Below, piece by piece: positions 16,402-22,719 of a DNA stretch of 32,296 bases (the first letter of the stretch is position 1; the number at the start of each line of letters is the position of its first letter). The notes under the pieces are model-generated. The model was not told the origin of the DNA, did no database searches, and saw only the letters and a list, made by a program, of their open reading frames with translations. The position numbers and the translations under genes were made by a program. This DNA is from Candidatus Nitrosopumilus sp. (GTDB lineage: Archaea > Thermoproteota > Nitrososphaeria > Nitrososphaerales > Nitrosopumilaceae): assembly GCA_003702525.1 (NCBI GenBank), contig REGJ01000012.1:1-32296 (forward strand), given 5' to 3'.

Positions 16402-17493
16402 GTGATTAAGAGTTCTGAGATCAAGAAAATTGTTAACGAGTACTCAGATGTAAAAATAGGCGTTCTTGGAAGTCATTCTGCACTCGAAATAATGGATGGT
16501 GCAAAAGACGAGGATTTTCAAACTAGGGTATTTTGCCAAAAAGGCAGAGAAGGACCATATCAAAGATTCAACAGAATTGCCGATGAGATTACAGTATTAG
16601 ATAAATTCAAGGATATGGCTTCAGCCAAAATTCAAAAGGAGTTAAGAGATTCAAATACAATTATTGTCCCACATCGCTCTCTTACAGTCTATTTGGGATA
16701 CAAGACAATTGAAAATTCTTTCAAAGTACCAATCTTTGGAAACAGGAAATTATTCCAAGCTGAAGAGAGAACTGCAAAGAAAGGGCAGTATTATCTCTTA
16801 GAAAAAGCCAGAATAAAATATCCAAAATTATTCAAAGATCCTAAAAAAATCAATAAACCTTGTATAGTCAAAGTACAAGAAAAGAACAGACCATTAGAGA
16901 GAGCATTTTTTACAGTATCATCTTACAAAGATTATGTTAAAACATCTGAAGAAAAAATCAAACAAGGGGTAATTGCAAGAAAAGACCTAGAAAAAGCAAG
17001 TATCGAAGAATTGGCAATTGGGACATACATGAATTTTAATTTTTTCCATACTCCAATTTCAGACCAAGTGGATTTTATTGGAATCGAGAGAAGACTGCAA
17101 ACAAACCTCATGGATTTTAATGCATTACCTGCAAAACAACAACTAGACATTGATGTTGATTTACAAAATATTGAAGTGGGTCATACACCTGCAAGTATTA
17201 GAGAGTCACTACTAGAGAAAGTCCTCAAGATGGGAGACAAGTTTGTCAATGCAGTAAAAAGAGAATATGCTCCAGGAATTATCGGACCATTCTCACTTCA
17301 AAGTGTAATTACAAAAGATTTGGAATTAATCGTCTATGACGTATCGTTAAGAGTTCCAGGAAATCCAATTGTTGCAACAACTAGCCCATATACAAAATAC
17401 CAATACGGACAGACATTTGGAGTGGGCAGAAGAATTGCGATGGAAATCAAAAGAGCTCAAGAAGAAGATAGACTAGACGAGATAGTTACATAG
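16402..17493 (+). CDS. purP: FAICAR synthetase (PurP)
   Basis: PurP is the archaeal formate- and ATP-dependent enzyme that formylates AICAR to FAICAR. The 363-aa length and motifs fit: IGVLGSHSALEIMDGAKDED (about 19-38), FCQKGREGPYQRF (44-56), IIVPHRSLTVYLGY, VPIFGNRKLFQAEE and a C-terminal FSLQSVITKDLELIVYDVSL with RVPGNPIVATTSPYTK. It is an ATP-grasp protein. GTG 16402 is used; the ATG at 16400 runs straight into TGA. The gene is separate from the purQ-purC run. Confidence 0.96.
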   Translation: MIKSSEIKKIVNEYSDVKIGVLGSHSALEIMDGAKDEDFQTRVFCQKGREGPYQRFNRIADEITVLDKFKDMASAKIQKELRDSNTIIVPHRSLTVYLGYKTIENSFKVPIFGNRKLFQAEERTAKKGQYYLLEKARIKYPKLFKDPKKINKPCIVKVQEKNRPLERAFFTVSSYKDYVKTSEEKIKQGVIARKDLEKASIEELAIGTYMNFNFFHTPISDQVDFIGIERRLQTNLMDFNALPAKQQLDIDVDLQNIEVGHTPASIRESLLEKVLKMGDKFVNAVKREYAPGIIGPFSLQSVITKDLELIVYDVSLRVPGNPIVATTSPYTKYQYGQTFGVGRRIAMEIKRAQEEDRLDEIVT

Positions 17494-17528
17494 AAAAATT
17501 TTCGAGCAACAAACAATTTTTAGAAATT

Positions 17529-17660
17529 AAAAAGGCGCAACCCCCTAATTGCAGAACTTTGAGAGATTCCCTCTCATGGTCAAACATCACAATGTTTGAG
17601 TGCCTTTATCGTTCTGCGGGGCTACGCAGTTTATTCGTTAGATTTTGTAACTAACGACAT
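17529..17660 (-). ncRNA. Candidate structured RNA of unknown family
   Basis: Read on the minus strand, GCGTAGCCCC (17627-17618) pairs with GGGGTTGCGC (17544-17535) as an unbroken 10-bp helix using two G-U pairs. On the plus strand the same helix would have two mismatches, so the minus strand is favoured. Inside are GCAGAAC/GTTCTGC (17617-17611 with 17557-17551), then two hairpins: TCAAACAT/ATGTTTGA around TGTG and TGAGAG/CTCTCA around GGAAT. T5 (17533-17529) follows the closing helix. A 5' hairpin CGTTAG/CTAACG (17656-17636) and a TATA-like CTTAAATAC (17690-17682) precede it. It does not resemble SRP, RNase P, 5S or C/D RNA as I know them. Confidence 0.65.
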
Positions 17661-17681
17661 CAATTCTTATAGGAAATTTTA

Positions 17682-17690
17682 GTATTTAAG
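17682..17690 (-). promoter_or_regulatory. TATA-like box of the structured RNA
   Basis: CTTAAATAC on the minus strand lies about 26 nt before the predicted 5' end near 17660. It is the best box in the right place, but the match is not perfect. Confidence 0.45.
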
Positions 17691-17870
17691 ATTTAGTATG
17701 AAAAATTACAATAATGATCTAAAAATATTGTAAGAATTAATCTTAATAGATCAACAAACAAAAACATATTTTCAAAACATTTCATGAGACTTTGTTAATT
17801 GGTTAGATTGGAAATACGTTGAATACCATTCATTCTAACTTTGGGTGATTAAAACGGTTTGACACTCAAA

Positions 17871-21885: not shown

Positions 21886-22719
21886 ATGGCAAAAAACAGA
21901 GACAATATGGAACAATCAAATTCAGTTAGCAAAGGCAAAAAGCTAATTGTAATAGGATTTGTTGCAATTGCATTATTATTCATCATTTATGCAAGATACC
22001 AGGATTCAGAATTACTAACACCTAGTGCAATTGAGGCAATTCAAAGAATTGCGTATCTATTTTATGTTGCATTAATTGCAGCATTTGGAGCAATTGCACT
22101 TGGTATGTACAGATATCACAAAGGAAAGATTGAAAGAAATGAAAAAGATCTTTCAACAATAATTGCACTAGTTACTTGGAATAAAAAATCAAGAAAAATT
22201 TTTGTTGCAACCTTTGTAGGATATGGAATATTCTTTGCACTAGTATCAGGGACATTGGTGTATCAACCAGAAGTTACATTCTCAATACATTATGGTGCAG
22301 AGATTCCTTCAGGATTTATTGCACCATGTTGTGGCGAACTAGGATATATGCCAAAAGTAATCATTTACCTTACAGAACATATTGGATTGCAAATAATTCC
22401 AATCAATCTAGTACTACAAATTATTGTATCGTATCTAGTTGCATTAAACACATCAATTGCAGTTAGCGCATATACATTTTCTAAACAAGGAACTGGAATG
22501 AGTGGAACGGGTGCAATCATTGGGGCATTTATCGCATGTCCAACCTGCGCAGGCACATTTTTCTCATTATTCATTGGAACAGCAAGTGGAATTGCACTGT
22601 CTCTTGCATTAGCACAATTGCAGACACTACTAATTGCAGTATCAATACCAATATTGCTAGCAACACCATACATTATGGCAAAAAAATTACGCAACTCAGA
22701 TGGAAGTTGTAAAATCTAA
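21886..22719 (+). CDS. Polytopic membrane protein with CC and CPTC motifs
   Basis: The 277-aa protein has about six membrane helices. Two cysteine motifs stand out: IAPCCGELGYMP (about residues 145-156) and ACPTCAGTFF (about 217-226), both near the ends of helices. Such pairs could bind a metal (copper or iron) or form a redox disulfide. The short N-terminus is cytoplasmic (MAKNRDNMEQSNSVSKGKK). The gene starts 16 nt after the TrkH gene and is probably co-transcribed. I do not recognise the family by name. Confidence 0.75.
   Translation: MAKNRDNMEQSNSVSKGKKLIVIGFVAIALLFIIYARYQDSELLTPSAIEAIQRIAYLFYVALIAAFGAIALGMYRYHKGKIERNEKDLSTIIALVTWNKKSRKIFVATFVGYGIFFALVSGTLVYQPEVTFSIHYGAEIPSGFIAPCCGELGYMPKVIIYLTEHIGLQIIPINLVLQIIVSYLVALNTSIAVSAYTFSKQGTGMSGTGAIIGAFIACPTCAGTFFSLFIGTASGIALSLALAQLQTLLIAVSIPILLATPYIMAKKLRNSDGSCKI

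Follow-up and report, generated by a model that had tools for sequence, protein, structure and literature searches.

A conserved nine-codon open reading frame abuts the folded core of a small RNA gene family in Nitrosopumilaceae

The gene purP of a Candidatus Nitrosopumilus sp. is followed by a spacer that a preliminary description had read as an independent gene for a structured RNA of about 130 nt. Here, we asked whether this spacer holds such a gene and, if so, what kind of RNA the gene would make. The window analyzed is the entire 32,296-nt stretch of contig REGJ01000012.1 (GenBank assembly GCA_003702525.1), and coordinates given without a locus or genome handle refer to it. purP (16402–17493, plus strand; DUF1246/DUF1297 by Pfam) has its stop at 17493, and the next open reading frame (ORF) begins at 17859, leaving a gap of 365 bp (17494–17858), the size reported earlier. 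Comparative evidence places a structured RNA gene of about 130 nt in this gap, on the minus strand at 17660–17529, with purP as its convergent neighbor. BLAST found a second copy of the RNA gene at another locus of the window's own genome, which the preliminary description had missed.

The minus strand forms the closing helix P1 as originally drawn, with 10 bp including two G-U pairs. The 5' strand GCGUAGCCCC (17618–17627) pairs with the 3' strand GGGGUUGCGC (17535–17544), and covariation supports both strands, with two-sided changes in 7 of the 10 pairs. Inside P1, the 7-bp helix P2 pairs GCAGAAC (17611–17617) with GUUCUGC (17551–17557, minus strand); 99.1% of its cells are paired, and two-sided changes occur in six of seven pairs. 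The junction J2/3 (17600–17610, minus strand) is conserved as GAAAAAGGCAA within Nitrosopumilus in alignment A1 and is variable in other genera. Hairpin P3 (17580–17599, minus strand) has 8 bp in the window, and all five of its modeled core pairs show two-sided changes. Hairpin P4 (17561–17575, minus strand; GAGAGGGAAUCUCUC, consensus GAGAGGnAAUCUCUC) is also supported by covariation and has 5–6 bp, where 6 had been counted. An unpaired C (17534, minus strand) follows P1 and is invariant among the distinct cores that we compared. The T run 3' of the closing helix is present as T5 (17529–17533, minus strand); it does not lie exactly after the helix, as had been thought, because this C intervenes. 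The run is a probable terminator, T-rich yet not fixed in relatives.

The minus strand folds at a z-score of -5.3, with none of 200 shuffles as good, and the plus strand at -4.2. We scored the structure (P1, 10 bp; P2, 7 bp; P3 core, five pairs; P4, 5 bp) on 79 distinct sequences. In total, 95.5% of the cells are paired, versus 35–50% in slid controls with the partners moved by 1–3 columns, and two-sided changes occur in 21 of 27 pairs (186 cells). None of 500 shuffles reaches any of the observed covariation measures; the alignment was fitted to an earlier model that already had most pairs and so leans towards structure, though the effect size leaves little doubt. Homologous spacers thus keep the pairings with many compensatory changes, the outcome on which the preliminary description had staked its reading. 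P4 is the most conserved part by sequence and P3 the most variable, in both length and sequence, and CGCC stands at the 3' end in 125 of 126 distinct cores. On the aligned sequences, the core is a three-way-junction RNA with a P1-P2 stack, a variable P3, a conserved P4, and a CGCC end followed by a T-rich terminator. We regard the gene and its fold as real with near certainty. We also rejected a further helix between the junction AAAAAGG and the 3' tail GCCUUUU: inspection gave no covariation support, and genera other than Nitrosopumilus have lost this sequence. The 5' side and loop of P4 (17561–17575) read GAGGnAAUC (GGAGGUAAUC in one genus) and are Shine-Dalgarno-like. To compare GAGGnnnUC of P4 with the 3' end of 16S rRNA, we looked for that end by its pattern and obtained no match in the window's incomplete genome.

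The gene also has a conserved promoter of its own, with a strong TATA box. A TATA-like box had been noticed upstream; its presence holds, and its sequence and position are corrected to TTAAATA at 17689–17683 (minus strand). TTAAATA or a close variant occupies the same upstream position in essentially all members with enough upstream sequence. The order is TTAAATA, then a CTATAATA-like element, then ATG or GTG at constant spacing, 27–29 nt from the TATA box. The element recurs upstream of members and in the window is CCTATAA (17667–17673, minus strand), just 5' of the presumed transcription start, where it may have a promoter function, judging from archaeal promoter anatomy.

When 80 purP loci were searched by BLAST, the element turned up downstream of purP in more than 40 Nitrosopumilus-type genomes besides the window's own. 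Entire genomes were searched with covariance model R1 and, after it, R2; of 398 genomes drawn from the phylum, 62 of the 63 Nitrosopumilaceae had a match, versus none of the 335 others. By hand count, 41 of the 62 genomes with the element hold two copies, 12 hold one, eight hold three, and one holds four. The only Nitrosopumilaceae genome without a match belongs to genus g11, and a permissive search recovers the element there (E values of 4e-11 and 4e-4); the permissive search found nothing in G124 and G119, two genomes of other genera, and in several incomplete metagenome-assembled genomes (MAGs). Two weak matches outside the family (E values of 0.05 and 2.5) have neither promoter nor ORF and were set aside as chance, as were four model matches at E > 0.39. 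One exact-pattern scan of IMG/VR gave no matches for viral carriage. As examples of paired copies, G042 carries both copies of the RNA, and G044 has them at 690199–690303 and 22427–22533, both on the plus strand. In a Nitrosopumilus MAG (G316), locus L229:1421–1630 has a very divergent core and a different P4, and its ORF still has nine codons. The family is probably broader than the model's reach. The wide distribution, conserved promoter, and conserved fold together bear out the original proposal of an independent RNA gene.

The reading as an RNA gene is incomplete, because the 5' quarter is a conserved nine-codon ORF of the leaderless type, which was previously missed. In the window, this mini-ORF (17631–17660, minus strand) reads ATG TCG TTA GTT ACA AAA TCT AAC GAA TAA and would encode MSLVTKSNE*; its start presumably coincides with the 5' end of the transcript. 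Of the 130 members in alignments A3 and A4, 129 have an ORF of eight or nine codons that ends 0–5 nt before P1, and the sole exception, L123, has lost the stop. A nine-codon ORF (eight in a few) ending 2–5 nt before P1 was found in 120 of 121 members. L226 has lost its stop and has TGA as the next codon, directly before P1, and the ATG is gone from two extra copies (L093 and L159). A few members start with GTG instead of ATG, and TTG is found in two extra copies that are degenerate. The 88 distinct ORFs use all three stops (53 TAA, 21 TAG, and 14 TGA), and TGG was never seen at the stop position, versus 3.3 expected with the two positions varying independently. ORFs that differ in length do so by whole codons (30 versus 27 nt), and none has an in-frame stop inside it. 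All 19 diverse 5' domains that we compared have the stop just before P1, versus a probability of 0.03–0.13 for each shuffled domain, and the other two frames are open in four and nine of the 19. We did not use the shuffle product of ~1e-20 as a probability, because shared ancestry and a window chosen afterwards inflate its value.

We also searched for TTAAATA followed at 27–29 nt by ATG or GTG, which gave 66 sites in 1.06 Mb with both strands counted. The family sites all open exactly nine codons (41 of 41), and the other 25 sites open 19–439 codons. Therefore, the start codon of the mini-ORF sits at the position of a leaderless gene. A core-only model, built without 5' information, gave three distant matches after the ORF rule had been set out, and each has nine codons (MPIVAKLID, MSVNPSSID, and MNKSANFNP). 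It is highly probable that the segment is selected as an ORF, and the RNA gene is not purely non-coding.

The same bases can also pair. In the window, the mini-ORF forms an upstream 7-bp hairpin (17657–17635), and hairpins of the 5' segment show some compensatory changes in relatives, e.g., CGTTAG/CTAACG versus CGA..TCG and CAG..CTG. Because of these changes, the conservation of the 5' segment is partly structural, and one could hold that the whole gene is a plain structured non-coding RNA in which ATG to stop is a 5' hairpin between a conserved transcription-start motif and an A-rich linker, with translation serving no purpose. The lack of peptide conservation described below would also fit. 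However, the hairpins vary in sequence and shift position between groups while the start, the in-frame stop, and the frame hold. The whole-codon length changes, the three stops without TGG, the nine codons in the three distant members found blind to the 5' segment, and the leaderless position of the start codon all speak against it as well. We consider a plain non-coding RNA unlikely.

If the segment is an ORF, its product might be expected to matter, with the nine-residue peptide as the active product and the 3' domain as a regulator or stabilizer, as in a dual-function small RNA. A short ORF does lie beside a structured RNA here, on what the promoter suggests is a single transcript. Among members of a single locus, conservation of the ORF equals or exceeds that of the core (identity of 0.875 versus 0.80–0.85), and K-D-x-x-(P/S)-I-D recurs among many ORFs. 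However, although start, stop, frame, and length are conserved, the peptide sequence is not. Column entropies of 1.12, 1.33, and 1.21 for codon positions 1, 2, and 3 give no coding-type pattern, as variation is not concentrated at third positions, and we found no amino-acid-level conservation pattern of the kind a conserved functional peptide would leave. Mean ORF identity is 0.88 per locus across genomes versus 0.64 between the two copies of one genome; these two copies encode unrelated peptides, and the peptides of different genera have almost nothing in common. An active peptide is therefore improbable. In four genomes, G031, G063, G066, and G073 (L089/L158, L160/L108, L146/L111, and L098/L149), the cores of the copies are 94–99% identical and the ORFs are locus-specific, which suggests gene conversion between loci confined to the core. 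The locus-specific 5' parts and the conserved neighbors of the copies argue against a mobile element.

We then looked at the genes around 49 loci. The convergence with purP first described is correct for the window, and the purP neighborhood, recognized by Pfam, is one among several locations of the family. Nearly half of the loci lie tail to tail with a related secreted-looking protein gene that has no Pfam match, and the stop of this gene is often 3–17 nt from the RNA end. This protein, of 142 aa at L002 (1073–1501), is also encoded downstream of the RNA at 21 other loci and is its neighbor in many genera. This association is old, and it may or may not reflect a functional link. Further neighbors are genes that, by eye from sequence, we take to be those of TFIIB, a small heat-shock protein, and SOD. 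Neighbors differ by lineage, and the downstream gene is convergent at most loci, as it is in the window.

Mini-ORF and structure together resemble an attenuation leader, and in one genus seven copies (L127, L133, L137, L139, L164, L165, and L174) lie 71–107 nt upstream of a same-strand corA. Each of these is a second copy, located between corA and a divergent gene that, recognized by eye, is presumably a TYW1-like radical-SAM protein. The RNA could then be a cis-acting leader, either a riboswitch or a leader-peptide attenuator, for the gene downstream. However, the gap contains a separate TATA box for corA, on which ground we rejected an Mg2+ riboswitch or leader at these copies, and the mostly convergent downstream genes speak against a leader elsewhere. 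No constant downstream gene was found among the 49 loci; therefore, the RNA is a separate transcription unit and, most simply, trans-acting. We judge a cis-acting role very improbable.

The earlier statement that the RNA belongs to no recognized family agrees with our searches. Rfam 15 gave no match above the gathering threshold in the window stretch, and no credible match at E values up to 10 for the local stretch or up to 1 for 20 diverse members; a pT181 antisense match (E value of 1.8) was put down to chance. The genome has its own archaeal RNase P RNA (RF00373) and archaeal SRP RNA (RF01857) genes elsewhere, on C38 and C14, respectively. A C/D box sRNA was rejected, with box C (RUGAUGA) in none of 126 distinct cores, as was an H/ACA sRNA, since the hairpin is followed by CGCC and U-rich sequence with no constant ANA by inspection. 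A tmRNA-like or tRNA-like ribosome-rescue RNA, for which the joining of coding and structured parts in one RNA, the long P1-P2 stack, and the acceptor-like stem ending in CGCC might be cited, is the least probable reading of all, as ARAGORN finds only tRNA-Asn at 974–1048 in the window and neither class at the RNA gene, no T-loop is present, the stem shows no constant G-U pair, and the ORF supplies a start codon of its own, for which a resume frame would have no need.

The genome paper of N. zosterae lists two ncRNA genes only (PMC13248708). We found no report of the element in the open-access literature, and reads of it may stand unannotated in sRNA lists from earlier metatranscriptomes. The two ncRNA genes of N. 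zosterae are, we assume, those for RNase P and SRP RNA. Tan1 of Thalassoarchaea and Yfr103 of picocyanobacteria are described as lineage-specific marine ncRNAs from metatranscriptomes with unknown function (PMC5069720). The likeness lies in a structured RNA confined to one abundant marine lineage and, for Yfr103, in several copies per genome; lineage, sequence, and fold differ, and no mini-ORF is mentioned there for either (PMC5069720).

With gene, strand, fold, promoter, distribution, and the conserved start, stop, and frame established by the sequence comparison, we favor, at about an even chance, a stand-alone RNA that probably acts in trans and that carries a 5' mini-ORF translated in the leaderless manner, with ribosomes stopping against the fold. 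A transcript of ~130 nt would be made from the gene's own TATA promoter, and by promoter spacing its 5' end would be the start codon of the ORF. Ribosomes would load on this leaderless start codon, read nine codons, and terminate 0–5 nt before P1. A ribosome with the stop codon in its A site would hold the beginning of P1 in its entry channel, so that each round of translation would open the 5' ORF hairpin and part of P1. The folded domain would be complete only once translation of the ORF lapses; it would act in trans, and its activity or stability would report on translation. On this reading, P4 would be the likely contact site for a protein or the ribosome. We put forward this gating by translation tentatively, from the geometry. 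The idea of a translation-gated trans RNA, in which a mini-ORF of constrained length and free peptide exists only to bring the ribosome to the fold, is one that we hold to be somewhat less likely than not.

In SgrS/SgrT and RNAIII/hld, a short ORF and a structured part share one small RNA, and the peptide is conserved and active. The dual-function bacterial sRNAs (SgrS/SgrT and RNAIII/hld; SR1, PMC8501984) likewise combine a short ORF with a separately acting structured part. Unlike in these RNAs, the peptide is free here, and the ORF is leaderless and abuts the fold at near-fixed spacing. Leader-peptide attenuators offer a second comparison. In the trp, his, and mgtL leaders, translation of a mini-ORF changes the folding of the RNA downstream, and here too it would alter folding just downstream; unlike in attenuators, no regulated gene follows, and the transcription unit is free-standing. 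These two are the nearest kinds, and the defining feature of each, the conserved peptide or the downstream gene, fails here. To our knowledge, there is no exact precedent for a leaderless mini-ORF with fixed frame and length and a free peptide that is fused to a structured RNA. The family appears to be a novel type of translated small RNA.

Ammonia-oxidizing archaea rank among the Earth's most abundant cells. Practically all Nitrosopumilaceae genomes have the RNA, usually as two copies, and it therefore likely has a core function. The arrangement of mini-ORF and fold would connect translation with RNA folding in archaea, a link that can be tested directly. If true, gating by translation would link the state of translation to an RNA machine with no need of a downstream gene.
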